From: Geoalkalibacter halelectricus
Lineage (GTDB): Bacteria > Desulfobacterota > Desulfuromonadia > Desulfuromonadales > Geoalkalibacteraceae
Reading direction: 5' to 3'
NCBI RefSeq assembly: GCF_025263685.1
Contig: NZ_CP092109.1
Span: 682,001-746,000, forward strand
DNA: 64,000 bases
This document shows, piece by piece, positions 8,319 to 44,354 of this stretch. A program made the position numbers and the translations under genes. Each line of letters starts with the position of its first letter. Within the stretch, counting starts at the first letter, position 1. Under the pieces are notes generated by a model that was not told the DNA's origin, ran no database searches, and saw only the letters and a program-made list of their open reading frames with translations.

Positions 8319-8642
8319 CTAAACCAGCATTCCCCCGAGCCAGTAGAGCAGCATTCCCACCAGAACCGTGGCGCCCAGGCTGCGGGTTTTCAGGGCGAAC
8401 AGCAGAGTCGGAATGGCGACCAGAAATTCCAGCTTGCCGAGACTGATTTCGCGGCTGACGTGGTCCGTGAACAGGATTGGGGCGAGTAGGGCGCTGAGGA
8501 TTGCCACGGGGATCAGGCTGAGCCAGTCGATGAGCCATCGCGGCATCCGCCGTTGAGCGAAATAAAGCAGGGGAAGGGCGCGCGGCAGGTAGGTAACCAT
8601 TCCCATGCCGGCGAAGAGAAGCAGATAATCGTTGAAGGTCAT
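8319..8642 (-). CDS. azlD: AzlD-family branched-chain amino acid transport subunit
   Basis: A 107-residue membrane protein with four predicted helices, typical in length and pattern for AzlD (early TYLPRALPL motif, C-terminal LLYWLGG). AzlD works with AzlC as a branched-chain amino acid exporter. The start ATG overlaps the azlC stop by four bases (8639-8642), so the two are translationally coupled in the order azlC-azlD. Confidence 0.85.
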   Translation of the reverse strand: MTFNDYLLLFAGMGMVTYLPRALPLLYFAQRRMPRWLIDWLSLIPVAILSALLAPILFTDHVSREISLGKLEFLVAIPTLLFALKTRSLGATVLVGMLLYWLGGMLV

Positions 8643-9349: not shown

Positions 9350-9519
9350 GTTTTTTTATCCCGTGTTTTTCTTGGAGGCTCAAGGCGGGAAAATAAAAAA
9401 AGTTTTTTCACCGGGATAATTTCGGTAAGATTCGACCCTGTATCCTTTTTTCCATCTTCTGTTAAATGCGGATCCACTCGTATCGCATGGATCGCAATGA
9501 CTGCAAGGCTTGAGCGAAC

Positions 9520-10317: not shown

Positions 10318-10333
10318 GCTGAATCCGCCCTGT

Positions 10334-26633: not shown

Positions 26634-26644
26634 CCCGGGCTAGC
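26629..26644. repeat. 16-bp palindrome spanning two overlapping stop codons
   Basis: The palindrome GCTAGCCCGGGCTAGC contains the stop of sodA (plus, 26631-26633) and of the NifQ fusion (minus, 26630-26632). The two genes therefore end tail to tail with a four-base overlap. Confidence 0.8.
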
Positions 26645-27649
26645 AAAACATAGCGCGTAATCACTGCACAGCCCACAGGCGGGCGCCTTGCATAGGCGCC
26701 CGCCTTGCTGTTCGCACAGTTGCTTGTACAAAAAGCGCTTCCAGCGCATGCCCTGGTGATTGGCCGCCGCCAGGGAGGGCAGCAGGCGGGTGATGGCGGC
26801 GGTGAGTTGCGGGCGCTCAAACAAACCCATGGCGACCCACAGATGTCCCGGATAGGCGGCGCGCGCCGCAATGATGCGCGCCAGGTAGCCGGCCAGTCGG
26901 CGCTGCACCGCGTCGCCTTCGGTCGGAACCTGGGCGAGCAAAAAGGGAAGAAGTTCCTCGGCCATCCGCGGCACGGGTTGGGAGGCCAGCGGGGCATGAT
27001 CGGCGAGCCAATCCAAATCCTTGCAGGCAAACAGCGTCTGGAGAAGATCCGCGATCGCCCCGTCGGGCAAGCCCAGGGCCGCGGCCGGTTGCCTGGTTTC
27101 AGCGACGGCCACGCACAGCAGACAGGCAAACAGGTGGCGGTCGCGGGCGTCGATGCCGGGCGGGCAGGGACGATTCATGAGGCTGCGATACAAGGGGTGA
27201 TCGGGGTCGACCCGCGGCTCCTCCTGGTGATCCTCGGGCTTCAAAGTTTTCTCGACGCGGCCCACATGCTCTCGGGCCGCATCGAGGGCGGCGTGCAGGG
27301 CGGCGACGGCCAACTCGGCGCAATAACCGCGCTCGGGGGGCAAGCCGCCCAGCAGCGTTTCGATGTCGTCGGTGCCAAGGTCGCGCGCCTGGGTGGTGGA
27401 TCGCAGTAGGGCCAGTTCCGCCGCCGCCGCGCACGCGGCCATGGAAAAACCGCAGCCGAAGACCTGATAACGCAAATCCGCGATGTGATCGTCATGAATG
27501 CGCAGGAAAAACCGCGCCGCCAGACGTGACCCGGCCTCATCGCCACCGAGGCCGACCTCGCCGACGCCCTGGGCTTCGGCAAGAGTGCCGGCGCGACGCG
27601 TATCGGCCGCCCAGCGGCGAATGGTCTCGGTATATTCGGACATGGCCAT
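26630..27649 (-). CDS. Fusion of IscU/NifU-N-like scaffold and NifQ
   Basis: A 339-residue protein with two parts. Residues about 1-130 resemble the IscU/NifU N-terminal Fe-S scaffold: QGVGEVG, then YQVFGCGFSMAAC (Cys66) and GYCAELAVAALHAAL (Cys110). The first canonical scaffold Cys (in NPxCGD) is absent. Residues about 165-339 are NifQ-like, ending in the diagnostic C320-x4-C325-x2-C328-x5-C334. NifQ carries a Mo-Fe-S cluster and feeds Mo to NifEN for FeMo-cofactor. The third gene after nifE and nifN, it starts at ATG 27649 in a TGATG overlap with the nifN stop; ATG 27643 is also possible. The fusion suggests cluster building and Mo loading on one chain (inference). Confidence 0.85.
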   Translation of the reverse strand: MAMSEYTETIRRWAADTRRAGTLAEAQGVGEVGLGGDEAGSRLAARFFLRIHDDHIADLRYQVFGCGFSMAACAAAAELALLRSTTQARDLGTDDIETLLGGLPPERGYCAELAVAALHAALDAAREHVGRVEKTLKPEDHQEEPRVDPDHPLYRSLMNRPCPPGIDARDRHLFACLLCVAVAETRQPAAALGLPDGAIADLLQTLFACKDLDWLADHAPLASQPVPRMAEELLPFLLAQVPTEGDAVQRRLAGYLARIIAARAAYPGHLWVAMGLFERPQLTAAITRLLPSLAAANHQGMRWKRFLYKQLCEQQGGRLCKAPACGLCSDYALCFASPG

Positions 27650-28944
27650 CAACCCTTGGCCTCGTGCCTGCGCTGGTGGTCGGCGGCATTGGCCACCTCA
27701 CAGAGAAAATAGGCCCCACCCTCATAGAGCAGATCGTTCTTCAACTGATTTCCGACCTGCTCCCAATTGGGAAATCCCCGCAACACCAAGCCCTTGTGGT
27801 ATCTCAGTGCGAGCGCCTCGCAGTGGAAGTTGCCGATGATCAGGTCGTAGTCCTCGTGCAGTCGTTCGGCGTCTTCAAGATCGCCGACCAGCACGCGCGT
27901 GGCCTTGATAGGGGCAAGCTGCGGCGCGTCCACCGTGGTGAGCGCCAGGGTGACACGTCCGCCCGCCTCGGTGAGGGCCTGGCACAGACCAGCGACCTGA
28001 TCCGGTTCGCCAACCACCGCAAAGCGGGTCTGACCCAGGGCGAAATGGCAATCGAGCATGGCATCCTGCAAGCGCATGCGCCAGCGCTTCACGCCAGGGT
28101 GAATCTCGGTCGCCGGCATCTTCTGCATCAGCAATTCCACCAGGGCGTCGCTGACCTCCAATCCGTGCAGATGGTCGAAATGATGGACGGACATGGCGGG
28201 ATTTTTTTCCCGCAGGGCCTGCGCGCAGTCGCGCATGGAGGCTCCGATGCTGATCACCAGGGCGGCATCGGCGAGGTTTTCGATGTCATCGACCTCGATC
28301 CCCCCGCCGCTCAAGGCGCCCTGCTTGTGGCCGAGATGGCCGTCCAGGGAGGTCGAGAGATCGGGCAGCGCCAGGGCTTCAAAACCGAACAGGGCTATGA
28401 ACTCCTTGATTTTTTCGACCTCGATGGGTTGCAGGCCGACATGGGGGAGAAGCACCAGCTTGTCCGGCTGGACCTGGTCGGTCGGGCGCACCAGTTGGCG
28501 AATCAGGGCGCGCGTCGCCAGGGCCCAACCGCTTTCCAGGCCCCCTTCGTAATCGGGGGTGTTGACATGGACGAGGGGAAAGTCGATTTTCGCCGCCACT
28601 CCGCGGATGTCGTCGCCCTTGGTCTCGGTCAGGCCGGTGGTGTGCAGGCCGATGAGTTTCGGCGCGACCTTGGCGGTGATGTTCTTGACCGATTCGACGA
28701 TGTTGTAATCGCCGCCGTCGAGAATGGCGGTGATGTCGGTCACGGCGGTGGTTTGAATGGCGATGGGCTCGCTGAAATGGCGGGTCAGAAACACCTTGGT
28801 GAACGACGCGCAGCCCAGGGCGCCATGCATGAGCGGCATGCACTGGTTGACGCCCAGAAACGCCAGGGCCGCGCCCATGGGCTGGGAGAGTTTGATCGGG
28901 TTGACCTGCAGGGGTTTACCGGGCTTGCGGCTCACTTCTCCCAT
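27649..28944 (-). CDS. nifN: Nitrogenase FeMo-cofactor scaffold subunit NifN
   Basis: A 431-residue NifN, the beta-like partner of NifE in the NifEN scaffold that matures the nitrogenase cofactor. It opens with the family pattern KPLQVNPIKLSQPMGAALA, followed by HGALGCASF (cluster Cys), DGGDYNI and GLTETKGDD. The start overlaps the end of nifE by 13 bases, and its stop abuts the NifQ fusion (TGATG). No nifHDK is in the window. Confidence 0.93.
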   Translation of the reverse strand: MGEVSRKPGKPLQVNPIKLSQPMGAALAFLGVNQCMPLMHGALGCASFTKVFLTRHFSEPIAIQTTAVTDITAILDGGDYNIVESVKNITAKVAPKLIGLHTTGLTETKGDDIRGVAAKIDFPLVHVNTPDYEGGLESGWALATRALIRQLVRPTDQVQPDKLVLLPHVGLQPIEVEKIKEFIALFGFEALALPDLSTSLDGHLGHKQGALSGGGIEVDDIENLADAALVISIGASMRDCAQALREKNPAMSVHHFDHLHGLEVSDALVELLMQKMPATEIHPGVKRWRMRLQDAMLDCHFALGQTRFAVVGEPDQVAGLCQALTEAGGRVTLALTTVDAPQLAPIKATRVLVGDLEDAERLHEDYDLIIGNFHCEALALRYHKGLVLRGFPNWEQVGNQLKNDLLYEGGAYFLCEVANAADHQRRHEAKG

Positions 28945-30284
28945 GGGGCCCTCCGTGCGACGATATTGAAGACCGGGTTCTCCAGGGCGTTCTTGATGTC
29001 CTCGGCCAGGTTGAGCAGGCCCTGATAGCCGCCGTAGCTCTTTTTCTTCTCCTGATTGACGTCGATGAAGGCGATGCGCTTCTTGATCGCGGTGTAGAGG
29101 CTGCGCCCCCCGGCCAGCAGCAGATGGGCGCCGGTCTGGTCGATGATTTTCGCCTGCTCGGTGCCGGGGTTGGTCATCAGCACGCCGCTTTCGCCCAGGT
29201 ACTGCCTGGCTTTCTCCTTGTCGTCCTCGGTGGCCTTGCGCACCGAAGTGGCCACCACCTCGATGCCGAGATCCTGAAGCGCAGATGCGATGGACCAGGA
29301 TTTGTTGCCGCCGGTATTCAAGATCGCCTTCTTGCCCTCAAACAAACGCCGGTAGGGTGCCAGTTTCTCTTCCAGCCAGGCCTCCTCGCGAGCGACCAGG
29401 GTCCGGGTACGTTCGCGCAGATCCTCATCCCCAAGGGCATCGGCGATGGCGAGCAGGCCGCTGCTGGTGTCTCGCTTGCCGTAGAAGGACAGGGAGATAA
29501 AGGGGATGCCGTATTGCTCCTGCATCTTGCGGGTCAGGGATATGAGGGATTTGGCGCAGACGATGACGTTGAGGCGCGCCCGATGGGCGGCACGAATATC
29601 GGCAATGCGCCCGTCGCCGCTCAGGGTGGCCAGCACGCGAATCCCCAGTTCCTCGAGCAGGGGAGTGTATTGCCACATGTCGCCGGTGACATTGTATTCG
29701 CCGATCAGGTTGATGTCGTAGGGGGTTCGCACCTCCGGCTCCTTGGTGCCGACCAGCGCCGCAAGCACCGCCTCGCCGCCCAGGCGGCTGCCGAGGTTTT
29801 TGCTGCCGACGAATCCCGGGGCGTGCACCGGAATCATGGGAATGCCGTAGGTGCTTTGCGCCTGACGGCACACTGCGTCGATGTCGTCGCCGATCAGGGC
29901 GGTGACGCAGGTTGCGTACACGAAGACGGCCTGGGGTGCATAGTTTTCGATAATGTAGTCGATGGCCGCGCGCAGTTTCTCCTCGCCGCCGAACACCACG
30001 TCGTTGGTCGAAATCGCCGTGGTGAAACCCATCTGGGTAAAGTCATGGCCGCGGTGGCTGGTCGGGGTGGCGCGCGTCTCCCAGGATGCCCCCAGACAGG
30101 TGATGGGGCCGTGTACCAGATGCGCGGCATCGGCATAAGGGAATAGGGCGATCTGGGCACCCTCAAAGGCACAGCCGCCAGTGGTGGCGCCAGGTGTCTG
30201 GGTGTTGCAGGCGCTTTTTTTAGCCGCGCTGTGGGAGCAGGCGCTTTCAACCAGAAGGTCCTTGATTTTGGGTTTTTTTGCCAA
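28932..30284 (-). CDS. nifE: Nitrogenase FeMo-cofactor scaffold subunit NifE (TTG start)
   Basis: NifE, the alpha-like subunit of NifEN. Motifs: ESACSHSAAKKS near the N-terminus, GCAFEGAQIAL, HGPITCLGASW, FVYATCVTALIGDD and a C-terminal GGYQGLLNLAEDI. I place the start at TTG 30284 (MAKKPKIKDLL, 450 residues). AAGGA lies about seven bases upstream and the protein then starts like other NifE. An in-frame ATG at 30389 would put 35 non-homologous residues on top of the sigma-54 promoter. First gene of nifE-nifN-nifU/Q. Confidence 0.93.
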   Translation of the reverse strand: MAKKPKIKDLLVESACSHSAAKKSACNTQTPGATTGGCAFEGAQIALFPYADAAHLVHGPITCLGASWETRATPTSHRGHDFTQMGFTTAISTNDVVFGGEEKLRAAIDYIIENYAPQAVFVYATCVTALIGDDIDAVCRQAQSTYGIPMIPVHAPGFVGSKNLGSRLGGEAVLAALVGTKEPEVRTPYDINLIGEYNVTGDMWQYTPLLEELGIRVLATLSGDGRIADIRAAHRARLNVIVCAKSLISLTRKMQEQYGIPFISLSFYGKRDTSSGLLAIADALGDEDLRERTRTLVAREEAWLEEKLAPYRRLFEGKKAILNTGGNKSWSIASALQDLGIEVVATSVRKATEDDKEKARQYLGESGVLMTNPGTEQAKIIDQTGAHLLLAGGRSLYTAIKKRIAFIDVNQEKKKSYGGYQGLLNLAEDIKNALENPVFNIVARRAPWEK

Positions 30285-30372
30285 GATCCGATCCTTTCCG
30301 CCGAAGTTGTTCGGCTGGCCATGGCTCAAAGGTCCGGCGCACTTGAAGGCGCGCCCCTTCCGGCTTGTCCTT

Positions 30373-30388
30373 TGCAAGAGCTTCGCCA
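30373..30388 (-). promoter_or_regulatory. Sigma-54 promoter of the nifE operon
   Basis: On the minus strand the sequence is TGGCGAAGCTCTTGCA: GG and GC are separated by exactly ten bases and sit in good TGGC and TTGCA contexts. Transcription would start near 30362, about 78 bases before the nifE TTG. I found no TGT-N10-ACA NifA site upstream; Geobacter-type nif control uses another enhancer-binding protein (known for that group; inferred here). Confidence 0.75.
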
Positions 30389-30489
30389 CATCGAAAAGGC
30401 AAATGTTTTGGGCTGTTTTCGCGGTGTCGGGGTCGAAAAGGTGGAAGAAATACGGGCAGGGTGTTTAAGAAATGGGCATATTGAGCATT

Positions 30490-31449: not shown

Positions 31450-32382
31450 ATGGTTCGTATCAAGACCTCTTCATTATTCCGCACCTTTTTGTTGTGCGTT
31501 CTCATGGTTTTTTCCATCGGCGCCACCAGCAGTTGGGCACAGACCCGCGTTGCGGTTCTCTATCCTCAGGTGCAGGAACCCTTCCTGTCGGTATTTCAAA
31601 GCATTCTTCGCGGCGTCGAATCGGATGCGAGTCTGACGGCGCGCCCCTTCGCCCTGCCCGAAAATCCCGACCTTGTGGCCCTGGATGCCTGGCTTGAGAG
31701 TGAAGGGATCGACCGGGTGATTGCCCTGGGGCGTCAGGGCGTTGCCGCCGCCCAAGCCCTGAACGGATCGCCGAAAATTGTTTTTGGCGCACTCTCGGCT
31801 CCTCCTCAGGGAATTTCGGGCATAAGCCTTTCTCCCGGTCCCGTCGTCATGTTTCAGCACCTGGCGGATTTGGCCCCTCGGGTGCGCAACGTTCACCTGG
31901 TTTATTCCTCGGCCAACGCCTGGCTGGTTCCCCTCGCCGAGTCGGCCGCCAAAGCCCAGGGACTGCGCCTGGCCACCTACCAGGTCGCGGATTTGCGCGA
32001 AGCCCTGCACGAGTATCGCCATCTGCTCCAGAGCCTGCGGGGGCCCACCCACGCCATCTGGCTGCCCCTCGACAATATCACCGCGGACGATGAGTTGGTG
32101 CTGCCCCTGGTGCTTCAGGGTGCCCTTGAAAAAGGGCTGGTGGTTTTTTCCAGCAAACCGGCGCATGCCCAGCGCGGCGCACTTTTTTCGGTTTACCCCG
32201 AGCATTTTGTTCTGGGACAGAGTCTGGCGCGGATGGTGGCATCCGCCACCCAGCAGGAACCTGTGATCGCTCCATTGGCCGATGTGCAGTTGGCCGTCAA
32301 CCTGCGGACGGCCTTTCATCTTGGTTTGCGTTTCACGCCGCGCCAGCAGGAACGGTTCGACCTGGTTTTTCCAACGCGATGA
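31450..32382 (+). CDS. ABC-type substrate-binding protein (ABC_sub_bind family)
   Basis: A 310-residue exported binding protein of the TrpX-like ABC_sub_bind family: signal peptide ending SSWA, then an RVAVLYPQVQEPF strand, VIALGRQGVAAA and VFGALSAPP, and a second lobe from about 140 (NVHLVYSSAN). Such proteins usually serve an ABC importer, but no permease or ATPase is nearby. The gene instead overlaps a sensor kinase gene by four bases (32379-32382) and precedes a TonB receptor. It may therefore act as the periplasmic ligand sensor of that kinase (inference). Confidence 0.85.
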   Translation: MVRIKTSSLFRTFLLCVLMVFSIGATSSWAQTRVAVLYPQVQEPFLSVFQSILRGVESDASLTARPFALPENPDLVALDAWLESEGIDRVIALGRQGVAAAQALNGSPKIVFGALSAPPQGISGISLSPGPVVMFQHLADLAPRVRNVHLVYSSANAWLVPLAESAAKAQGLRLATYQVADLREALHEYRHLLQSLRGPTHAIWLPLDNITADDELVLPLVLQGALEKGLVVFSSKPAHAQRGALFSVYPEHFVLGQSLARMVASATQQEPVIAPLADVQLAVNLRTAFHLGLRFTPRQQERFDLVFPTR

Positions 32383-34061
32383 GCTTAATGGTAGCCATGC
32401 AAAACCTTACCGGACAGCGTAAATTTTTCTCAAGCTTTCGTACTCGCCTGTTGGCGGCCGCGACCTTGGGAATTCTTTGCCTGGCTTTGACCGCGGCGTT
32501 AACCACCGCCTGGGTGAGCGGCAATCGTGCCCAGGCGCAGATGATCGCCCAGGGCATTCAAGTGACCGATACTCTGGCCGGGCAAAGTGCCCTCGCCCTG
32601 TTGTTCGCAAGCCGCGAGAACGCAGAAAAGCCCCTGTCGGCCATCATGGGCTTTCCGAATGTCGATTACGCCGGGATCTTCGACCCGAACGGCGAGGCTC
32701 TCCTGGTGGTTGGGAGCGACTACGCATCCCTGCCTCGAGCGCGCGTTGGTACACGCGAAGCTGGAGCCGTCCTGGCGCGTGAGACCGCTTTCGCCTGGCA
32801 TTTCGTGGCGCCGGTCTATACTGGCGCGACCACCGAGATGTCTGATCCGCTCGATTCGCCTTTTGATTTGGGGCCGCCGCCCAAGGAACTTTTGGGCTTT
32901 GCCTACGTGGCGATGAACAAGAGAGCCCTGCACGCCCTGAACATGAACATTTTCATCAATAATCTGGTCATCGGCTTGTCCTTTGCCGGGGTCATTGTTC
33001 TGATTCTCAATATCGGTATCAAGCGTTTGCTGCGGCCCCTGGACCAACTCTCGGCGCTGATGCGGGAAGCCGAACGGAACAACGCCTATGTTCTGGCCGA
33101 TCTCAAGGGGCCTGAGGAAATCACCCACATGGCCGGAGTCTACAACCGCATGATGACCAGCCTCGAAGAGCGCGACCGGCGCTTGCGCCGGCACCAGGCC
33201 GTGCTGCAGACCGAGGTGGCCTTGCGCACCCGCGAACTGGTTCAGGCCCGCGATGCCGCTCTGAATGCCAGCCGCTATAAATCCGAATTTCTCTCCAACA
33301 TCAGCCACGAATTGCGCACCCCCCTTCAGGCCATCATCGGTTACGCCGACGTGGTGCGGGAGGACCTGGAACTGGAGGGGATGGAAGAGAGCGCCAGGGA
33401 GCTTGGCCGCGTCATCCACAACGCCAAGCGTTTGTTGAACCTGATCAACGACATCCTGCTGCTGGCCAAGGCCGAGGCGGGCCGGATGGAGTTGCGCATG
33501 CAGGTGGTCGATTTGCGCGCCTTGGCCAGGGAAGCGGCGGAAACCATTCAGCCCCTGATGCAGCAAAACGGCAACCACCTCGATGTTGAGCTTCGCGTTG
33601 AACAAGACATCGAGATCGATCGGGAAAAGCTTCTTCAGGCGATCCTCAATCTTCTGAGCAACGCGGCCAAGTTCACCAATCAGGGAACCGTCACTCTGGA
33701 GATGGAGCAAAAGTTGCACCTGCTCAAGATCAGCGTGGCCGATACGGGTATCGGTTTGACTCTTGAGCAGCAGCGCATCATTTTCGAGGAATTCCGTCAG
33801 GTCGACGGCAGTTATACCCGTAAATTCCAAGGCACCGGCCTGGGCCTGACCATCACCAGGCGTTTTTGCGAACTGATGGGGGGCGGTATTCAAGTGCAAA
33901 GCGAACCCGGCAGCGGTTCGGTGTTCACCATCGAGATTCCCTTGCCCGTATGTGTTGATCGGGGTGAGGAATCCGCCTCGAGGGCGCAGGGCGAATTCAG
34001 TTTTGAGTTCAAGCCGGGCCGCGACCAGGATTTATTGCCAGAAAATCAAGGGGGGGCATAA
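32379..34061 (+). CDS. Membrane sensor histidine kinase (CHASE8-like-HAMP-HisKA-HATPase)
   Basis: A 560-residue kinase. Transmembrane helix about 22-46, a periplasmic domain about 47-190 resembling CHASE8 (QSALALLFASRENAEKPL, DYAGIFDPNGEAL), a second helix about 193-213, HAMP to about 268, a coiled coil, then HisKA with His310 (ISHELRTPLQAI). HATPase motifs are ILNLLSNAAKF, DTGIGL and GTGLGLTI. There is no receiver domain and no adjacent response regulator, so its partner is elsewhere. Translationally coupled to the binding-protein gene. In this position it would report periplasmic ligand to the cell and may govern the TonB receptor gene that follows. Confidence 0.88.
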   Translation: MSLMVAMQNLTGQRKFFSSFRTRLLAAATLGILCLALTAALTTAWVSGNRAQAQMIAQGIQVTDTLAGQSALALLFASRENAEKPLSAIMGFPNVDYAGIFDPNGEALLVVGSDYASLPRARVGTREAGAVLARETAFAWHFVAPVYTGATTEMSDPLDSPFDLGPPPKELLGFAYVAMNKRALHALNMNIFINNLVIGLSFAGVIVLILNIGIKRLLRPLDQLSALMREAERNNAYVLADLKGPEEITHMAGVYNRMMTSLEERDRRLRRHQAVLQTEVALRTRELVQARDAALNASRYKSEFLSNISHELRTPLQAIIGYADVVREDLELEGMEESARELGRVIHNAKRLLNLINDILLLAKAEAGRMELRMQVVDLRALAREAAETIQPLMQQNGNHLDVELRVEQDIEIDREKLLQAILNLLSNAAKFTNQGTVTLEMEQKLHLLKISVADTGIGLTLEQQRIIFEEFRQVDGSYTRKFQGTGLGLTITRRFCELMGGGIQVQSEPGSGSVFTIEIPLPVCVDRGEESASRAQGEFSFEFKPGRDQDLLPENQGGA

Positions 34062-34141
34062 GGTGCGGTTTGATCGAATTAATCCGCCGTTCACTGCAAA
34101 GGAGGGGGAGTGGAGCAGCCGTTTCAACAGGAGGTAGGTCC

Positions 34142-36295
34142 ATGCGTCACGGCCTGAGAGGTTTGAGTCTCGCCCTCGTCCTTATTCTTTTTGCGCCCCT
34201 TGGTTCCCGGGCCATAGCGGAGATGGATTTTTCATCCCCCACGGTTCAGGAAATGCGCGATTTCTACGGGGACGAGGCCTTCATCACCATCGCCACCGGC
34301 AGTCGCAAACCCGTTTATCGCGCGCCGGCCGTGGCCACCGTGATCACCGCCGCGGAGATCAAGGCCATGGGGGCGCGCAGCCTCGACGAGGTGCTTGAGA
34401 CGGTTGCCGGCTTGCATGTGGTGCCCTCGGCACTCAATCGATTGGATTCGATTTACTCCATCCGCGGAATTCATACCGGTTTTAACCCCCATGTTTTGCT
34501 GTTGATGAACGGTGTTCCCTTCACCAACAATTTCAACGGTGGGCGACCAATACTCTTTCGTTTACCCGTTTCAAACATTTCCCGTGTTGAAGTTATTCGC
34601 GGGCCAGGGTCGGCTGTATATGGAGCCGATGCTTTTGCAGGGGTCATCAATATAATTACTAAGGACGCAACCGATATCGATTATACGGAAGTTGGGGGTC
34701 GAGCAGGCTCCTTTGGCAACCAAGATTTATGGCTTCAACATGCGATAAAATCTTGGCCCTGGCATCTAAATTTTGCTTTAGATTTACATAGGAGCGATGG
34801 AGATAGACATCGAAAAATAGATTCAGACCTGCAAAGTGCATTAGATCAGGAATTCGGAACAAATGCTTCACTCGCACCAGGCGCGTTAAAGACTGACTTC
34901 GATGTTCTGAACCTGCATCTCAACCTTGAGCGAGGTAATTGGCAGATCAGAAATTGGTATTGGCAACAAGATAATGCCGGTCAGGGAGCAGGGGGGGTTC
35001 AGGCCTTGGATGCCAAAGGGGGCCACTCTGAAAATCTTTATTTATTTGACGTGGAATATAAGAATGCGGATGTTGCAGACCATTGGGACTTAAATGCGAG
35101 GGCAAATTACCTTTATCGTAAAACGAACAGCCGACTTTATTTATTTCCACCGGGGGCTCGAATTCCTATCGCAGAGGATGGAAATGTAAGCTTTGACAGC
35201 CCGGTTGGAAATGTATTGTTTCCTGATGGTGTTATTGGAAACCCTATTGCCCGGGAGGACCAGATAGGTTTTGACATTGTTTCATTTTACAACGGATTTT
35301 CCAACCATAGATTGAGATTCGGGACTGGTATTAAATACCAGAGTATCTCAACTGAGGAATATAAAAATTTTGGTCCAGGTGTAATTGATGGCAGTGAGGA
35401 CATTGTTGGAGGCGCTTTAGTAAACGTTACTGGTACGCCTTTTATATATTTGCCGGATAAATCGCGAACCGTTTTTTTTCTTTCAGTTCAAGATGAGTGG
35501 CAAATATCACGGAATTGGGAAGTAACGACTGGGGTCCGTTTTGATCATTATTCTGATTTCGGTAAAACAATTAATCCGCGAATTGCCCTTGTTTGGGCAA
35601 CACGACACAATCTTACAACTAAACTAATGTATGGACGCGCTTTTCGAGCCCCCTCTTTTTCCGAGCAATTTGCGATTAACAACCCCGTTATTTTGGGAAA
35701 CCCTAACCTCAACCCTGAAACCATTGATACGGTTGAACTTGCTCTGGTCTATCGTCCAATTTTTGATATGCAAATTGGATTGAATTTATTTGGATATAAA
35801 GCAAATGACCTTATAGAGTTTATTCCGGACACAGGTGTGGATAGCAGTACTGCACAAAATAGCAGAAACCAAGATGGATATGGATTTGAACTCGAAGGGA
35901 TGTGGGATTTTTCCGAAACTTTGCGTTTAAGGGGAAACTACGCTTGGCAGAGGTCGATAGATAAGGATACCAGACATCGAATTCCTGATGCCCCTGGCCA
36001 GCAATTGTATATAAGTGCAGATTGGCAATTTTTGCCTCAATGGTTGCTGCATCCTCAATTGAATTGGGTTGGAAGCCGTAAACGTGCCGAGGGAGATTTA
36101 CGAGAAAACATTAAGGATTACACCTTGGTGGGCGTTACATTGCGCCGAGAGGAGATTCTAAAAAATCTTGATTTTGCTGTAGCAGCTCGTAATATTTTCG
36201 ATGAGGATGGACGTGAGCCAAGCACCGGCATCATTGGAAATGACTACCCCGTAGAGGGGCGCCATTTCTGGGGTGAATTATCTTATAGGTTTTAA
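34142..36295 (+). CDS. TonB-dependent outer-membrane receptor
   Basis: A 717-residue receptor. Signal peptide to about residue 27, plug domain about 50-170 (VATVITAAEIKAMG, IRGPGSAVYGADAFAGVINI), a 22-strand beta-barrel, and a C-terminal phenylalanine (GELSYRF). The start is ATG 34142 with AGGAGG seven bases upstream. Ligand unknown; receptors of this shape take up metal chelates or cobalamin-like compounds. Odd feature: bases up to about 34545 are GC-rich like the neighbours, while the rest is clearly AT-rich, as are the two genes behind it. The gene looks like a recombination mosaic whose barrel was replaced. Confidence 0.92.
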   Translation: MRHGLRGLSLALVLILFAPLGSRAIAEMDFSSPTVQEMRDFYGDEAFITIATGSRKPVYRAPAVATVITAAEIKAMGARSLDEVLETVAGLHVVPSALNRLDSIYSIRGIHTGFNPHVLLLMNGVPFTNNFNGGRPILFRLPVSNISRVEVIRGPGSAVYGADAFAGVINIITKDATDIDYTEVGGRAGSFGNQDLWLQHAIKSWPWHLNFALDLHRSDGDRHRKIDSDLQSALDQEFGTNASLAPGALKTDFDVLNLHLNLERGNWQIRNWYWQQDNAGQGAGGVQALDAKGGHSENLYLFDVEYKNADVADHWDLNARANYLYRKTNSRLYLFPPGARIPIAEDGNVSFDSPVGNVLFPDGVIGNPIAREDQIGFDIVSFYNGFSNHRLRFGTGIKYQSISTEEYKNFGPGVIDGSEDIVGGALVNVTGTPFIYLPDKSRTVFFLSVQDEWQISRNWEVTTGVRFDHYSDFGKTINPRIALVWATRHNLTTKLMYGRAFRAPSFSEQFAINNPVILGNPNLNPETIDTVELALVYRPIFDMQIGLNLFGYKANDLIEFIPDTGVDSSTAQNSRNQDGYGFELEGMWDFSETLRLRGNYAWQRSIDKDTRHRIPDAPGQQLYISADWQFLPQWLLHPQLNWVGSRKRAEGDLRENIKDYTLVGVTLRREEILKNLDFAVAARNIFDEDGREPSTGIIGNDYPVEGRHFWGELSYRF

Positions 36296-36299
36296 CGAA

Positions 36300-37118
36300 A
36301 TGAAGCCAGATCACAGAAAAGACCAAGTGCGGACGGAAGTTTTCGCAAAGCGTCCAGCAACACGTATTTGGGATGAATCTCGTACCGAAAATAACCCATT
36401 TATTGCAAGCAGTTGTCGGGTTTTTGGGTTTGATCTTCTCGATTTGATGAAAAAACGAAGTTTTGTTGACGTCCTTTTTCTTCTCTTCAGGGGCGAGCTT
36501 CCCAGCAGCGAACAGTCCGAATTACTTGAACAGTTAATGATTTCTATAATTAACCCAGGTCCACGGCATGTCGCTACACGCGCTGCCATGAATGCCGGGG
36601 TGGGCAAGACCGATACTGTCCATATTTTGCCAATCTCTTTGGCAATCATTGGTGGTGATTATTTAGGCGCTGGAGAAGTGGAACAGTCCATGCGCTTTTT
36701 CAGGAAGCAGCAAAAAAAATGCCCCGAACAGGTGTTTGAATTTTTTGTTGATGAAAAGCAGCGTCCTCATGAAGGAGATTGGCACCCTGTTCCAGGTTTC
36801 GGTAGTCGTTTCGGCTGTGTCGAGGTGATGCAACAAGATATTGCTGACTGCTTAAGTAAATTACCCGGCGCAGGCAAAGCGCTTGAATGGGGTTGCAAAT
36901 TTTCCGCTCTATTGGCCTCAAAGGATATGGGGTGGTTGTCGCCAGGCGTGGCTGCTGCTGTATTTTCTGATTTGGGATTTCATCCCAAAACGGGTGCAGG
37001 CCTGTTTCAATTGCTAAATGGACCTGGATTGTTGGCCCACGGCCTTGAAATGGCGAACAAACCAATGACTTCCATGCCTTTTCTCGATGACGAGAGGTAC
37101 ATTATTGAAGATGAATAA
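36300..37118 (+). CDS. Citrate-synthase/citryl-CoA lyase-fold protein A, catalytic residues lost
   Basis: A 272-residue protein with the citrate synthase layout: GFDLLDLMKKRSFVDVLFLL, GELPSSEQ, a central IGGDYLGAGEVEQSMRFF segment, PGFGSRFG and a C-terminal LLNGPGLLAHGLEM. By alignment with the citryl-CoA lyase branch the catalytic positions are changed: the His of VHGGA is replaced (YLGAG), the His of PGFGH is Ser, and the Asp of NVDG is lost (LSPG). It starts five bases after the receptor stop (ATG 36300), and the next, related gene overlaps its end by eight bases. AT-rich like the receptor barrel. It may pair with protein B; function unknown. Confidence 0.7.
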   Translation: MKPDHRKDQVRTEVFAKRPATRIWDESRTENNPFIASSCRVFGFDLLDLMKKRSFVDVLFLLFRGELPSSEQSELLEQLMISIINPGPRHVATRAAMNAGVGKTDTVHILPISLAIIGGDYLGAGEVEQSMRFFRKQQKKCPEQVFEFFVDEKQRPHEGDWHPVPGFGSRFGCVEVMQQDIADCLSKLPGAGKALEWGCKFSALLASKDMGWLSPGVAAAVFSDLGFHPKTGAGLFQLLNGPGLLAHGLEMANKPMTSMPFLDDERYIIEDE

Positions 37119-37932
37119 CAATATTATTGAATATTGGAATACCCAAAGGGGTAAAATTCGTTCGCGCAAAGGAGGCTGGAGAGTCGGGAAGGGAGTTTTT
37201 TGCCACGGATACAATCTATTAGAAGACCTGGCGGGCAGCCATTCTTATTTTCAAGTTTTGATTCTTCAAGCTACAGGTCGCCTGCCAGACAAGAAGTTTG
37301 CAGATTGGTGTGAAGCCTTTTTTATCTGTTTGAGTTGGCCGGATGCGCGAATCTGGTGTAATCAGATTGGTGCTTTAGGGGGAACGGTGCGCGCGTCCGT
37401 TGTTGCTGCAACCGTTGCCGGTGTTCTCGCCGGAGATTCACGCGCTTACGGCCAAAGGACTCTGGTAGAGGGGCTGCAATTCATTCAAGGGGCGCTTAAG
37501 GAAAAAAGACGGGGCCTGACAGCCAGGGATATTGTTCATCAAGAATGCAAGCGCCAAGGTGGAAAGCCTCAAATAATGGGGTATGCTCGACCGATTGCCA
37601 AGGGAGACGAGCGAATTATTGCAATGGAGCGCGTCGGAAAGGAACTTGGATTTGATGTGGGCGCGCATTTGAGTCTGGCCTACGAAATTGAAAATGTTTT
37701 GTTGGATGAATTTGATGAGGGCATGAATATTGGAGGCTTTGTTTCGGCTTTTTTTTCGGACCAGGGCTATTCCCCCAAAGAAACATATCAGATCTGTTCC
37801 GTTCTTATAGCGAGTGGTGTCACGGCCTGCTATGTCGACACCTATGACCGTCCCCCCGAGAATTTTTTGCCCATGCATTGCGACGACATTGATTACCAAG
37901 GTCCACCACCCCGCCCCGTCCCCGAAAAATAG
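37111..37932 (+). CDS. Citrate-synthase/citryl-CoA lyase-fold protein B, catalytic residues lost
   Basis: A 273-residue relative of the previous protein. Family landmarks: NLLEDLAGSHSYFQVLILQATG near residue 35, the WPDARIWCNQIGALGGT segment, GDSRAYG where citrate synthases have GPLHGGA, MGYARPIAKGDERI where they have PGFGHRVYK, and MNIGGFVSAFFSDQGYSP where they have NVDF. All three catalytic residues are therefore absent. The conserved-looking tail HCDDIDYQGPPPRPVP contains Cys and acidic residues. Start ATG 37111 inside the end of gene A. The two together may form a heterodimer that binds a citrate-like or acyl-CoA ligand, or use new chemistry (inference). Confidence 0.65.
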   Translation: MNNNIIEYWNTQRGKIRSRKGGWRVGKGVFCHGYNLLEDLAGSHSYFQVLILQATGRLPDKKFADWCEAFFICLSWPDARIWCNQIGALGGTVRASVVAATVAGVLAGDSRAYGQRTLVEGLQFIQGALKEKRRGLTARDIVHQECKRQGGKPQIMGYARPIAKGDERIIAMERVGKELGFDVGAHLSLAYEIENVLLDEFDEGMNIGGFVSAFFSDQGYSPKETYQICSVLIASGVTACYVDTYDRPPENFLPMHCDDIDYQGPPPRPVPEK

Positions 37933-37941
37933 ATTTTTGGC

Positions 37942-37977
37942 AAAAAACGGCCGGGAATTTTATCCCGGCCGTTTTTT
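37942..37977 (+). terminator. Terminator after the citrate-synthase-like pair
   Basis: Stem ACGGCCGGGA/TCCCGGCCGT with a six-base loop, flanked by A and T runs, so it can work in both directions between the convergent genes. Confidence 0.9.
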
Positions 37978-38000
37978 GATTCATTTGGCTAATAAGTTTC

Positions 38001-38070
38001 CTAAAAGGCTGTCGGGCTATCCATGAGCCGGATTTGCAGCCGGCTCATGGATAGCCCGACAGCCTCCTAG
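38001..38070. repeat. Long hairpin repeat (REP-like), 30-bp arms
   Basis: Arms 38001-38030 and 38041-38070 are inverted copies: 25 bases pair perfectly and two outer bases mismatch, with a ten-base loop. The stop codon of the acetolactate-synthase-like gene (38067-38069) lies inside the right arm. A one-mismatch copy of the right arm occurs at 18-39, so this is a dispersed element. Confidence 0.85.
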
Positions 38071-39875
38071 CGCCCTAAATTTTTCATGCGCATCCCCATG
38101 GGAGGAACTTCCTCCCCATCGACGATCACATCCAGCAGGGTTGGTCCTTGGCGGCGACAGATTTGCTCGATGTCGAGGTTGTCCAGGTCGGCGATGGATC
38201 GGATGTTGTAGGCCTCGGCGCCCATGGCGCGGGCCATGCCCGCGAAATCCACCGGCGGCAACTCGAAACCGACCGGTTCGGCACCCCCGAGGCGTTGGCC
38301 GTGCTTGACCATGCCGAGGGCGCCGTCGTTGAGCATCACGTAAATCACCGGAAGCTTTTCGGCGACCGCAACCGTCAATTCCTGCCCGCTCATCAGCCAA
38401 CTGCCATCCCCCGTGAGACAAACCACCGGTGCGCCGGGGCAGCCGATGGCCGTGCCGACGGCGGCCCCGATTCCCCAGGCCATGGCCCCGTAGCCCATGG
38501 CCACACGATAGAGGTCACGGCCTTGGGGCATAAGATAATGGATCGACCAGGTCCAACTGTTGCCGGCATCGGCAATAAAGCGCGTATGGGCCGGGAATCT
38601 TCTGGAAAGCTCATGCATCAGCCGCTGCGGTTTGAGGGGCAGGGCATTGCTGTAGAATTTTTCCGCCTCGTTGAGGTGAATGCGCGGCGGCGGCAGTTTG
38701 CGCGATGCGTTGCCGGCTTCCTCGGTGTTTTGCGAGGCGATTGAGCGGTCGGCCACCAGGCGCAGTTGCCTGGGGCAGCAATGTTCGCGTACCTGAGCCA
38801 GGAGATTTTTAAAGATGCTTTGAATGGTGCCGCACACATGCAGGTGCGCCAGGGGCGCCAGATGAAAGTTTTCGGCGGTGACGTCGATCTGGACGAGTTT
38901 TTCCTGAAATGCCTTGCTTTTCAGTAGACTCCCGAAGACCAAATCATCCATGCGTGTTCCGACCGCCAGAACGAGGTCCACTTCCGCGTCGTTGACCGCC
39001 TGGGAGGCGCTCTCATGACCGGCGAAGCCAAGCGTTCCGCGGTACAGGGGGTGGTGGTGGTCGGCATGGCGTTTGCCGGCCGGTCCACTGACGAAAATCG
39101 CATGGACGGCATCGATGAATTCCATGATGACATCCATGGCGCCGCCGCAGTCTTCACCGAGAATCACCACTATGCGCGGGCTTTTGGCCACCTCGTTGTA
39201 CAGCGCGTCCATGGCCTGCAGGTTGGTCATGTCGTGGGGGTTGAGAAGATTGTTGAACAGCGGCATGTAGGCATCGGAGCGCAAGCGCCGGGGTGAAGCC
39301 AGCACATCCATGGGAATGCTCAGGTGCGCCGGGCCGGCGGGTGGCCCCTGGGTGGCGAGGATGGCCGAGAGCAGCTTGCCCTCGAGCTGGCCGCGGTGGG
39401 AGACCAGACTGCTGAAGCGGGTACAGGCCTGGAACATGGCGACGGTATTCACCGCCGTGCAGGAAGACTCCTGCAGGGTGCGCCTGCCGAACTGCGGCAA
39501 GGCGGTCTGAGCGGTCAGAACCAGCATGGGAATGTTGTCGGCGTAGGCCGAAGCCACTCCGGTAATCAGATTGGTCGCTCCCGGCCCGGTGGTGGCGCAG
39601 CATACCCCGAGTTTGCCTGTTTCTCGGGCATAGCCGTCGGCCATGAAGGCCGCCCCCGCCTCGTGGCGGGCGATGATGGGGCGCAGGCCGCCGCGTCTGG
39701 AACTGCGCGCCATGGCATTGTAGAGGGGCTCGATCGCCCCGCCGGGCACGCCGAAAATGTACTCGACACCGATGCCCTCGAGGTATTCCACCACCAGGTC
39801 GCCCAATTCGGGCCGGCAAGTCGCGGTTATCTCACTCGGGGACGGGGCTGTTTGCGATGCTTTAAAGTCCACCAC
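38067..39875 (-). CDS. Thiamine-diphosphate enzyme, acetolactate synthase large-subunit-like
   Basis: A 602-residue member of the IlvB/acetolactate synthase family, which joins pyruvate-derived units. Catalytic Glu72 (RHEAGAAF), the GPGATN loop, and the TDP/Mg motif GDGSW...LND near residues 500-530 are present. Start GTG 39875: GGAGG lies five bases upstream, and the next codon is also GTG. No ilvH/ilvN small subunit or other ilv gene is near, so it may be a catabolic or otherwise specialised relative. Its stop lies inside the hairpin repeat at 38001-38070. Confidence 0.82.
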   Translation of the reverse strand: MVDFKASQTAPSPSEITATCRPELGDLVVEYLEGIGVEYIFGVPGGAIEPLYNAMARSSRRGGLRPIIARHEAGAAFMADGYARETGKLGVCCATTGPGATNLITGVASAYADNIPMLVLTAQTALPQFGRRTLQESSCTAVNTVAMFQACTRFSSLVSHRGQLEGKLLSAILATQGPPAGPAHLSIPMDVLASPRRLRSDAYMPLFNNLLNPHDMTNLQAMDALYNEVAKSPRIVVILGEDCGGAMDVIMEFIDAVHAIFVSGPAGKRHADHHHPLYRGTLGFAGHESASQAVNDAEVDLVLAVGTRMDDLVFGSLLKSKAFQEKLVQIDVTAENFHLAPLAHLHVCGTIQSIFKNLLAQVREHCCPRQLRLVADRSIASQNTEEAGNASRKLPPPRIHLNEAEKFYSNALPLKPQRLMHELSRRFPAHTRFIADAGNSWTWSIHYLMPQGRDLYRVAMGYGAMAWGIGAAVGTAIGCPGAPVVCLTGDGSWLMSGQELTVAVAEKLPVIYVMLNDGALGMVKHGQRLGGAEPVGFELPPVDFAGMARAMGAEAYNIRSIADLDNLDIEQICRRQGPTLLDVIVDGEEVPPMGMRMKNLGR

Positions 39876-39924
39876 GAATACCTCCTGCTGTTTTTTGCAG
39901 TACGACAATCCTGTCCGAATACAA

Positions 39925-42402
39925 TCAAGGAAGCTGCAAGTCCTCAACCGGTTGAGGCTGTCCGATGTGAAAGCCTTGGGCATAGTCGATGCCCAGTTGG
40001 GTCACCAGGTTCAGTACCACATCGTTGTGTACGAACTCGGCGATGGTTTGTTTGCCGAGGTTGGTCGCGACCTCACAAATGGATTTGACCAATACCTGGT
40101 CGATGGGGTCGCGATCCAGGTGCCGGATGAAGCTTCCATCCACCTTGATAAAATCGGCGGGGAACTGCTTGAGAAAACCAAAAGTGCTGAAGCCCGTACC
40201 GAAATCATCCAGGGCAAAATCGCACCCCAACTGCTTGATCTGAGCGATCATGCGCTGGGTGGCGCTGATGTTGGAGATGCCCGCATTCTCGGTCAATTCG
40301 AACATCAGCCGCCGTGGATCAACCTTTTGCGCCCGCAATTGTTCTTCGATCAGGGGCACCAGGTCGCCGTCGTTAAAGGATTGGGCGGAGAGATTGACGG
40401 CGATGCGTCGCAGCCGCGGATGATTCTTGAGATGGCGCACGGCCAGTTTGATAACCGCGTGATCAAGTAGGGTCATTTCACCGGCGCGTTCCAGGGCGGG
40501 GATGAATTCTCCTGGTTTGGCGATGCCTTGTCCGGGAACGTCGAGGCGCACCAGGGCTTCGTAGTGGGTGATTTTTCCGCTGGCGATGTGCAGGATGGGT
40601 TGAAAGTGAAGCAGCAAGCGGTCGTTTTCAATGGCGTGACGCAGCCGCGATGCCCAGTTGAGGCTCAGACTCAAGGCGTCATTTTCACGATCCATGGGGT
40701 CGTAAACCCTGATGCGGTTGCGACCCTGGCGCTTGGCGGCATAGAGAGCCATGTCGGCCTGCTTGAGATAATCCTCCGGGGTTGCTCCATGTCCGTTGAT
40801 CTCGCTGATGCCGATGCTGCAGCTCAATTCGAAGGATTGCCGATCGCTGAGTGTGAGGGGATGCTGCTGAATGACCTGCGCTACTTCCGCGGCCACCATC
40901 AAAGCCTGGGCCTGATCGGCATGGGGAATCAATATGGCGTATTCGTCTCCTCCCAGCCTGCACAGAACATCGGATTGGCGCAGCCTGCCCAGCAGGGAAG
41001 CGCCGATTTCACGCAGGATCAGATCCCCCTGTTGATGGCCGAAATTATCGTTGATGACCTTGAAGTGATCGATATCCAGACAGAGCAGGGCATGCTTGCT
41101 CTTGTCCCGCGCACTGCGCACGGCCAGACGGCGCAGGGCACCTTCGAAGTAATGGCGGTTATAGAGGCCTGTCACCTGGTCGTGCATGCTCAGAAAGGCC
41201 AGCTGCTTCTGAATGCTCTTGTGTTCGGAAATATCGTCCAGACAACCGAAAATCGAGCGTTTACCTGCCTCGGAGGTACTGGCGTCGAGCCGGCAGTCAA
41301 CCCAGAGGATGCCGCCCTGGTTGTCACGCAGGCACATCTCTCCCTGAAGCTGATGAATTTTTCCGGACAGCAGGGGTTCGAACCAATTGGTGCGCTCCTC
41401 TTCCGACGAAGGCAGAAACAATGCCAGGGGCTGATGCAGGGATTCTTCCAGGGTAAAGCCCGTCAACTCAGTCCAGGCCTGGTTGAGGAAGCAGATCTTG
41501 CCATCCTGATCGAGCTCGATGACCACGGTGCGCAGATTCGCCAGCAGGCGCTGGTGGGCCTCGGAAATTATTCGGTAAGCCTCGGTGCTTTGCTTGAGTG
41601 CATCCACGCGCGCGGCAAATTGGCTGTTGCTGACCAGATAGTCCTCGCGGCGCACCGCCAATTCGCAAACGCGGCGCAACTGATCGGCCATGAAGGGCTT
41701 GGCGATGAAGTCGGCCGCGCCCTGCAGCATCAGCTCCTCGGCCAGCTCAACGCTGCTGAAGGCGGTCATGGCAACAACCGCCTGGGAGCGGTCGATCTTC
41801 ATGATCTCGCGGAGAACCTGGGGACCGGACATGCCAGGCAGCATGGTGTCGAGGAGTACGAGGTCATGGCGGCGCGCCATCCACGCGGCCAGGCCCGAGG
41901 GGCCGTCCTCGGCGATCTCCACGTCGAAGCGACGACTCAGAACGCGCTGGGCGATCTGGGCCGTATCAGGGGTGTCCTCCACCACCAGCACGCTTGGATT
42001 GCGAAAGGCCTCCCCGGGCATTACCAGGCAGTTGCGTACTACCTGAGGCAATTGCCAATGATGATCCAGGGCCACCATGGCGTTGACGCCGAATTCACGA
42101 GCGGTGGTTTCAGCGATGCGCTCGCACCAGGTCTTGGCGACGACGATAATGGGGATATCACTCTTGCATTTGAAAACCCCGCTGCGCAGCAGGCGCGCCA
42201 GTCGCCAACCATCGAGGTCGGGCATTTCAATGTCGGTGATGAGCAGGTCGACGGCGACATTGCGCAGAACGCGCGAGGCGCTCAGACCGCAGGAACCTTC
42301 GGAGATCTTGGCATGCCCGGCATCTTCCAGCAGGGCGCGCAAGGTGGCACGGATTTCCGCTTCGCTGTTGACCAGAAGTATATGACTGTGATTTGCGATC
42401 AA
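39925..42402 (-). CDS. REC-REC-PAS-GGDEF-EAL cyclic-di-GMP signalling protein
   Basis: A soluble protein of about 825 residues. First receiver about 8-125 (TDIEMPDLDG), second about 135-255 (LLDTMLPGMSG), PAS about 300-410 (FLNQAWTELTGF), diguanylate cyclase with GGDEY, and phosphodiesterase EAL with YEALVRL, NLSAQS, ELTEN and DDFGTGFST. Both catalytic motifs look intact, so it could make and break cyclic-di-GMP. The start is uncertain: I prefer TTG 42402 (GAGA upstream). The in-frame TTG at 42492 coincides with the -35 box of a good promoter. Confidence 0.9.
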   Translation of the reverse strand: MIANHSHILLVNSEAEIRATLRALLEDAGHAKISEGSCGLSASRVLRNVAVDLLITDIEMPDLDGWRLARLLRSGVFKCKSDIPIIVVAKTWCERIAETTAREFGVNAMVALDHHWQLPQVVRNCLVMPGEAFRNPSVLVVEDTPDTAQIAQRVLSRRFDVEIAEDGPSGLAAWMARRHDLVLLDTMLPGMSGPQVLREIMKIDRSQAVVAMTAFSSVELAEELMLQGAADFIAKPFMADQLRRVCELAVRREDYLVSNSQFAARVDALKQSTEAYRIISEAHQRLLANLRTVVIELDQDGKICFLNQAWTELTGFTLEESLHQPLALFLPSSEEERTNWFEPLLSGKIHQLQGEMCLRDNQGGILWVDCRLDASTSEAGKRSIFGCLDDISEHKSIQKQLAFLSMHDQVTGLYNRHYFEGALRRLAVRSARDKSKHALLCLDIDHFKVINDNFGHQQGDLILREIGASLLGRLRQSDVLCRLGGDEYAILIPHADQAQALMVAAEVAQVIQQHPLTLSDRQSFELSCSIGISEINGHGATPEDYLKQADMALYAAKRQGRNRIRVYDPMDRENDALSLSLNWASRLRHAIENDRLLLHFQPILHIASGKITHYEALVRLDVPGQGIAKPGEFIPALERAGEMTLLDHAVIKLAVRHLKNHPRLRRIAVNLSAQSFNDGDLVPLIEEQLRAQKVDPRRLMFELTENAGISNISATQRMIAQIKQLGCDFALDDFGTGFSTFGFLKQFPADFIKVDGSFIRHLDRDPIDQVLVKSICEVATNLGKQTIAEFVHNDVVLNLVTQLGIDYAQGFHIGQPQPVEDLQLP

Positions 42403-42462
42403 GGGGATTCTCGACGGCCGGCCAAGTTGGGTTTCATCATTAAGAGGATGAAGTGGATTTAA

Positions 42463-42492
42463 AAAATAGCTTTTATGAATCAGGCCTGTCAA
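42463..42492 (-). promoter_or_regulatory. Sigma-70 promoter of the GGDEF-EAL gene
   Basis: Minus strand: TTGACA (42487-42492), an 18-base spacer and TATTTT (42463-42468). Initiation near 42456 leaves a leader of about 50 bases before TTG 42402. Confidence 0.6.
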
Positions 42493-43452: not shown

Positions 43453-43454
43453 GG

Positions 43455-44345: not shown

Positions 44346-44354
44346 GGGACTTCT

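Follow-up and report, generated by a model that had tools for sequence, protein, structure and literature searches.

A Geoalkalibacter halelectricus locus combining a thiamine diphosphate enzyme and two citrate-synthase-fold proteins with a TonB-dependent receptor and a putative sensor: a candidate for making, recapturing and sensing a small molecule

We analysed a locus of Geoalkalibacter halelectricus in which genes for a periplasmic binding protein, a histidine kinase, a TonB-dependent receptor and two citrate-synthase-fold proteins stand next to genes for a thiamine diphosphate (ThDP) enzyme and a GGDEF-EAL protein. The whole stretch of DNA analysed, hereafter the window, comprises 64,000 nucleotides (contig NZ_CP092109.1, positions 682,001 to 746,000), and its features are numbered from its first letter. 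The locus is made up of the following genes and elements:

31450-32382, + strand: sbp, ABC_sub_bind periplasmic binding protein (PF04392, 33.5 bits against a cut-off of 25.9)
32379-34061, + strand: hk, membrane histidine kinase of HAMP-HisKA-HATPase architecture (domain profile matches)
34142-36295, + strand: tonB, TonB-dependent outer-membrane receptor (start placed from the sequence; open reading frame 34070-36295)
36300-37118, + strand: csA, protein of predicted citryl-coenzyme A (CoA) lyase fold without the full canonical catalytic set (open reading frame opens at 36273)
37111-37932, + strand: csB, paralogue of csA (residue numbering counted from 37087)
34540-37940: low-GC block covering most of tonB, csA and csB (approximate breakpoints, from GC content and gene trees)
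37941-37978: stem-loop with T-rich flank between the convergent units (match to the terminator consensus only)
38067-39983, - strand: als, ThDP enzyme of BbmA/CsmA type, convergent to csB
39925-42492, - strand: ggdef, REC-REC-PAS-GGDEF-EAL protein (domain matches)

An earlier reading of this DNA (hereafter the original prediction) had described five consecutive same-strand genes at 31450-37932, and open reading frames (ORFs) and domain matches bore this out, including the overlaps: sbp and hk are coupled by an ATGA at 32379-32382, csA and csB by eight bases at 37111-37118, which follows from the csB start at 37111. The ATG of tonB at 34142 is preceded by a Shine-Dalgarno-like GGAGG, and no permease gene adjoins sbp. 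The locus had also been taken to end at 37932, by which the convergent ThDP enzyme gene and the REC-REC-PAS-GGDEF-EAL gene were missed. The true start of als is probably downstream of 39983, because homologue matches begin near residue 17-59. The stem-loop at 37941-37978 fits a terminator separating the convergent units, the fit being to the consensus only; 8 terminator-type sites were found in the region against 12.8 expected by shuffling.

Among 98 relatives, csA was retrieved from 13, i.e. 11 with a close homologue (55-65 % identity) and two with a distant one (27-29 %). The same 11 genomes carry csB, and all of them have a ThDP match at an E-value of 1.7e-130 or better. Wherever the contigs of the close loci were long enough, the order was sbp-hk-tonB-csA-csB, then convergent als and ggdef; one of these loci (L021) has a divergent ggdef. 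The window's outer flanking genes were found in the loci of congeners only. Additionally, 84,980 species genomes were scanned with patterns from two conserved peptides, by which divergent members are missed; this yielded 95 csA-relative loci, and all locus counts given here refer to the best 80 of these 95. According to their record titles, they belong to Gallionellaceae, Chromatiales, Cellvibrionaceae, Desulfobulbaceae, Desulfuromonadales, Magnetococcales and, for one, Nitrospirae, many being metagenome bins. No published description of this gene set was found in the open-access literature searched.

csB is present in 75 of the 80 csA loci. In these 75, many of which lie on short contigs, we found a TonB-dependent receptor in 72, a ThDP enzyme in 56, an ABC_sub_bind or YfiR-like protein in 57 and some sensor part in 60; where both flanks measured 9.9 kb or more (35 loci), the corresponding numbers were 35, 32, 34 and 35. 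With a receptor in 72 of 75 loci, the proposal that receptor, sensor and the two citrate-synthase-like proteins belong together was supported, and csA-csB pairs deprived of receptor or kinase did not turn up in number. Twenty 20-kb control stretches, taken from four genomes that carry the locus, were searched with the window proteins at unchanged thresholds, the YfiR and clustered binding-protein labels being used for the loci only; they held no receptor, als or binding protein, two kinases and one ggdef. That sensor, receptor and enzymes are chance neighbours without functional link is most improbable in our view: kinase and GGDEF genes are common, as the controls illustrate, but the receptor and the ThDP enzyme, nearly constant in loci with full flanks, were absent from all 20, and between lineages it is the order of the genes that changes, not their content.

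This variation of order was recorded for 79 loci (L029 left out). Ignoring unlabelled ORFs, als reads in the same direction as the pair in two arrangements, lying 5' of csA in 12 loci and 3' of csB in 10; it is convergent beside csB in 7. The orders seen were ALS-csA-csB-TonB, ALS-TonB-csA-csB, TonB-csA-csB with convergent ggdef and ALS, and csA-csB-ALS-TonB-YfiR-hk. As order is varied and content kept, co-location appears to have been retained through rearrangement.

The citrate-synthase fold originally proposed for the last two proteins was supported by confident AlphaFold models, which predict a citryl-CoA-lyase fold for both csA and csB. The csA model (predicted local distance difference test, pLDDT, 92.0; predicted template modelling score, pTM, 0.85) matched citryl-CoA lyase 6hxp with a Foldseek E-value of 2.9e-11, a TM score of 0.67 by query length and a VIA Z of 22.2 (root-mean-square deviation, rmsd, 5.6; 237 residues aligned). 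The csB model (pLDDT 88.0, pTM 0.81) matched the ATP-citrate lyase core 6hxo with a VIA Z of 21.9 (rmsd 5.2, 253 aligned). At the sequence level, 6hxp was matched at 8.2e-17 by csA and 4.7e-9 by csB; both proteins remained below the cut-offs of the NCBIfam PRK06224 (citryl-CoA lyase) models (77.5 bits against 212 for csA, 53.3 against 245 for csB). The two families are related to each other (hhalign probability 97.8), and among solved structures their profiles retrieved citryl-CoA lyase, ATP-citrate lyase and citrate synthases; three further rows at E-values of 0.2-1, two with csB and one with csA, were unrelated. The likeness to 6hxp and to the ATP-citrate lyase core thus concerns the fold over nearly the whole chain, whereas the locus differs by its unretained His/His/Asp set, its two paralogous chains and its different gene company.

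In order to follow these catalytic positions, 80 csA and 66 csB proteins were aligned to 6hxp and the commonest letters of each column counted, citrate synthase His274/His320/Asp375 being taken by us as equivalent to 6hxp H99/H139/D189. The csB alignment was limited to proteins of 260-320 residues (66 including the window's); csA of L084 and csB of L032, L057, L083 and L087 were dropped owing to stops in the frame read. Rows of the alignments A3 (73 rows), A4 (63) and A6 (26) were hand-picked for spread. In the window, csA has Y130/S178/P224 at the three columns and csB has A120 (beside the invariant Y121)/R168/G216, in line with the loss of His-His-Asp claimed by the original prediction. This loss is not universal, as the first column still holds His in 54 of the 80 csA proteins (Tyr in 19, Phe in 4); in the 66 aligned csB proteins, Met, Ser and Ala are the most frequent residues there, and an invariant Tyr follows directly. 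The second column is Ser in 58/80 csA and Arg in 66/66 csB, and the Asp column is Thr (45/80) or Pro (25/80) in csA and Asn (39/66) in csB.

csA and csB look repurposed rather than decayed, because each family keeps invariant residues of its own: these include G96-H99, T102, Q246 and E259 in csA, and are R88, W90, C91, N92, Y121, R168, P169, D174 and R176 in csB. Both sets would fit a new active site. The disappearance of the canonical catalytic set from both proteins could also mean that they arose from citryl-CoA lyase as regulators that bind a ligand or CoA without catalysing a reaction. We consider this very unlikely: many of the invariant residues are polar (R98, H99, T102, Q246 and E259 in csA; R88, C91, N92, Y121, R168, D174 and R176 in csB), and the constant pairing with a ThDP enzyme suggests an active site. 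From the constant pairing of csA with csB, the two may form a heteromer.

The window als scored 293.7 bits against the acetolactate synthase model TIGR00118, below its equivalog cut-off of 538.35, and the identity of an ordinary acetolactate synthase was rejected on this score. Without exception, 26 proteins of the module carry H107-E108 and the GDG motif (525-527), positions of catalytic and cofactor function. A profile built from these 26 ThDP proteins retrieved BbmA (535.6 bits) and CsmA (449.8 bits), then acetolactate synthases from 350.9 bits down, which places the als family, by profile comparison, closest to BbmA and CsmA among solved structures. Passages of PMC12395478 present CsmA and 'BpmA' as CybE homologues ('BpmA' being taken here as the same protein as BbmA of the PDB) and the CybE product as made by acyloin condensation of two 2-oxo acids; BbmA and CsmA are described as alpha-hydroxy-beta-keto-acid synthases (PMC12395478, PMC13307353). 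At an E-value of 1e-90 or better, als was found in 16 of the 98 relatives, i.e. the 11 csB genomes and five of one other family (42-45 % identity in this search). The als relatives of these five genomes (L115-L119, near 8200-10800) show 39-45 % identity and are not accompanied by cs genes.

Two known pathways resemble the enzymatic part of the locus. The furanolide (cyanobacterin) pathway CybC/CybE/CybF shares with it a ThDP enzyme of acyloin type, the CybE homologues CsmA and BbmA being the nearest solved structures to als, and then uses an acyl-CoA (PMC12395478), as we propose below for the locus. It differs in its second enzyme, the ketosynthase-type CybF, annotated as a 3-oxoacyl-acyl carrier protein synthase (PMC8777810), where the locus has a citrate-synthase-fold pair; in addition, the passages on the pathway consulted here mention neither receptor nor sensor. 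The carbazole pathway, with CqsB3 (NzsH) and CqsB1 (NzsJ), differs by a KASIII-like condensing enzyme followed by the carbazole synthase CqsB2. Both CybF and CqsB1 are described as ketosynthase-type enzymes condensing the ThDP product with an acyl thioester (PMC12395478, PMC8777810, PMC7466098). No CybF-type ketosynthase was seen among recurring or annotated neighbours, which represent part of the ORFs and were not searched with a CybF sequence. The place of the cs pair in the locus and its fold would allow it to take on a ketosynthase-type role. Homology of csA and csB to CybF itself was considered and found unsupported, CybF being described as a ketosynthase (PMC8777810) and the solved matches of both profiles being those given above.

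Genes of tailoring type accompany the pair in some loci. Two families of short-chain dehydrogenase (SDR) genes, scoring at least 300 bits in 15 and 6 loci, are represented at most 3.3 kb from csA in 21 of the 75 loci; for 18 of these 21, the opening of the frame is no more than 0.94 kb away from the end of csA, i.e. beside csB, once on the other strand. The scanned SDR-family proteins were confirmed by Pfam as short-chain dehydrogenases. O-methyltransferase genes occur in two loci (L052, L070), APS kinase genes in four (L061, L065, L067, L091) and Pfam-confirmed sulfotransferase genes in four (L064, L065, L066, L072), some of these three kinds being on the opposite strand. ORF cluster 11 was discarded as a sulfotransferase set, being mixed with antisense ORFs over als, and only Pfam-confirmed members were counted. 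None of the four kinds stands beside csB in the window. Taken together, the tailoring genes favour synthesis of a molecule over its breakdown, which SDRs alone would not.

They bear on the converse possibility that a citrate-like or acyloin-like compound from outside is taken up and degraded, als, csA and csB acting in cleavage. This would suit the citryl-CoA-lyase folds and a ThDP superfamily that includes lyases, e.g. 2-hydroxyacyl-CoA lyase and benzaldehyde lyase. We nevertheless judge it quite unlikely: als comes closest to BbmA/CsmA, some loci have genes for a sulfotransferase, an APS kinase or an O-methyltransferase near the pair, and CaiB-type CoA-transferase and tricarboxylate transporter genes instead mark, by eye, two loci with more ordinary citryl-CoA-lyase-like proteins (L027, 9366-10187; L028, 3864-4694).

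Regarding the sensor, the binding protein without permease had been suggested to serve the kinase, and comparison between loci agrees with this: a YfiR-like (DUF4154) protein stands in for the ABC_sub_bind protein elsewhere (four proteins checked), and in Cellvibrio-type loci the YfiR-like domain is fused to the kinase (one ORF cluster, 14 loci, domains checked in one member). The sbp product is thus probably the sensor's ligand-binding partner, and the REC-REC-PAS-GGDEF-EAL protein is likely the output partner of the kinase. The sensor domain of the kinase is weakly like sCache_4 (3 of 10 kinases) or CHASE8 (2 of 10, best E-value 0.0056). For the family scan, 39 of 154 unlabelled neighbour ORFs were used and 25 of 42 families listed, the others being viewed singly. 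No recurring inner-membrane importer was seen among annotated neighbours, inspected by eye and through the first 25 of these 42 families; this absence of evidence, covering part of the neighbours, fits sensing in the periplasm.

YfiR-YfiN systems control cyclic di-GMP (c-di-GMP) from the periplasm. The YfiR/HmsC-like (DUF4154) proteins of some loci and the GGDEF-EAL partner recall them; the locus differs by relaying through a histidine kinase and REC domains instead of a membrane GGDEF protein, and the CHASE8 match is weak. In LuxP-LuxQ autoinducer sensing, a periplasmic binding protein gene lies beside a membrane histidine kinase gene, as sbp adjoins hk. Here the binding-protein family is another one, and a TonB-dependent receptor and presumed synthesis genes stand alongside.

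The three central genes have a history distinct from that of their neighbours. GC content, in 150-base steps, is 0.38-0.56 in the block against 0.57-0.61 just upstream. Across eight genomes of the order (28 non-independent pairs, L023 left out), pairwise identities correlate at r 0.91-0.94 among sbp, hk and als and at 0.87-0.93 among tonB, csA and csB, against 0.62-0.73 between the two sets; ggdef, of which one locus has a divergent copy, correlates less with all genes (r 0.37-0.75). Trees were compared by approximately unbiased (AU) tests, the clades being chosen after the identity table had been seen. With sbp+hk+als, the window joins G003 (100/100) and G002+G003 is rejected (p-AU 7.7e-6); with tonB+csA+csB, G002 joins G003 (100/100) and window+G003 is rejected (p-AU 1.1e-11). 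The single-gene trees of sbp, hk, als and ggdef each give window+G003 and reject G002+G003 (p 0.020 to 1e-48), and window+G003 is rejected by tonB (p-AU 2.9e-5) as well as by csA+csB (2.1e-5). The trees indicate that at least one of these lineages swapped its tonB-csA-csB block while the genes on either side stayed in place. Block GC is also low in L019, and the low values in the window and in L019 indicate the window's copy as the incomer. A similar, less clean split was found in a hand-picked group of Cellvibrionaceae (TonB-csA 0.94, kinase-ALS 0.91, csB-kinase 0.36). TonB identity drops sharply near residue 205, but no breakpoint was placed there, as identity to L019 drops in the same way (plug against barrel). 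Exchange of the receptor together with the cs pair suggests that the receptor must match the product.

This common tree signal of receptor and cs genes would also suit a metallophore, als, csA and csB making a chelator of alpha-hydroxy-acid type whose metal complex is imported by the receptor and reported by the sensor. TonB-dependent receptors often carry metal chelates, and the carriers include Gallionellaceae, Geoalkalibacter, Electrothrix and Magnetococcales, which we associate with iron-related habits. We hold a metallophore to be unlikely: a single Fur-box consensus, with up to 3 mismatches allowed, was not matched anywhere in the window, the search of neighbours described above disclosed no recurring inner-membrane importer, and the output of the sensor is of c-di-GMP type.

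The reading that we prefer, to which we give an even chance, is that the locus makes a small diffusible molecule, be it a signal or a metallophore, recaptures it and senses it outside the cell, rather than serving to import citrate. The original suggestion that a citrate-like ligand is imported and handled was not supported; biosynthesis fits better because the ThDP partner is of natural-product type, tailoring genes occur, and no recurring importer was seen among annotated neighbours. Under this scheme, csA and csB together would join a ThDP-derived intermediate to an acyl-CoA-derived unit via their new active site, and in some related loci the product may then be reduced, methylated or sulfated. 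The molecule would leave the cell and be returned to the periplasm by a receptor matched to the csA-csB product, as gene association and block exchange suggest. From the domains, the ABC_sub_bind protein, or the YfiR-like protein elsewhere, would present it to the kinase, and the kinase would signal to the REC-REC-PAS-GGDEF-EAL protein, changing c-di-GMP. The product, its self-recognition and the c-di-GMP output are inferred, what was observed being gene content with its conservation, the predicted folds, the altered catalytic positions, the BbmA/CsmA affinity of als and the conflict between the trees.

Several observations weigh against this scheme. Three of the 75 loci hold als-csA-csB without a receptor (two Magnetococcales bins and Candidatus Magnetaquicoccus), three of the 35 with full flanks have no detected ThDP gene (L035 of these has a short als-like match), and L050, L056, L059, L062 and L068 carry a csA homologue alone, without csB, als or TonB. 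SDRs occur in catabolic loci too, and a weaker SDR1 match (95.8 bits) is present in one control stretch of the 20. No exporter was identified. As regards the block, a clade comprising the whole genus (window+G002+G003) is not rejected by tonB-csA-csB (p-AU 0.144), so that the trees do not fix which lineage exchanged its block; the split, clear in Desulfuromonadales, was not seen in hand-picked Gallionella-type or Desulfobulbales-type sets; and linkage of the adjacent tonB, csA and csB is a simpler alternative to matched specificity.

A bolder version is possible, although on the whole we lean against it: an autoinducer made by a ThDP carboligase and a heteromeric citrate-synthase-fold enzyme, re-entering only via its own TonB-dependent receptor, with c-di-GMP set by the binding protein and kinase, receptor and synthase being exchanged as a specificity cassette, and the whole being widespread in Gram-negatives. 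If our scheme is right, citrate-synthase-fold proteins have been rebuilt as a two-subunit biosynthetic enzyme in place of ketosynthase-type enzymes. There would then be a class of small molecules still to be isolated, served by an outer-membrane receptor and a c-di-GMP sensor of their own, in Gallionellaceae, Cellvibrionaceae, Desulfobulbales, Desulfuromonadales and others. Likeness to citryl-CoA lyase and acetolactate synthase below the cut-offs means that routine annotation may file these proteins under primary metabolism. The receptor-cs block offers a direct route to testing matched specificity.

Some further observations concern the surroundings of these loci. Near the lone csA homologues (near 7600-10800), acyl-CoA dehydrogenase, thiolase, FadB-type and acyl-CoA ligase genes were recognised by eye, i.e. 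a fatty-acid setting. The receptor-less als-csA-csB loci adjoin large ORFs (L104, 11391-16571, a Ser/Thr kinase-AAA-GAF-histidine kinase protein; L108, 6057-11369), and L106 has an AMP-binding ligase. In the window, NifE and a second Oxidored_nitro protein (nitrogenase-component-like) adjoin a NifU_N-NifQ fusion at 26630-30389; a nitrogenase-cofactor link was rejected, such outer flanking genes being confined to the loci of congeners and the module occurring elsewhere as well. At 42526-45170, the GGDEF-EAL gene is preceded on its upstream side by a DUF3014 gene and two radical-SAM genes, each found in one or two congeners. Finally, a palindrome at 38009-38065, directly after the als stop, is a REP-like (repetitive extragenic palindromic) element with 80 matches in its own genome, counting both strands, at about 40 places.

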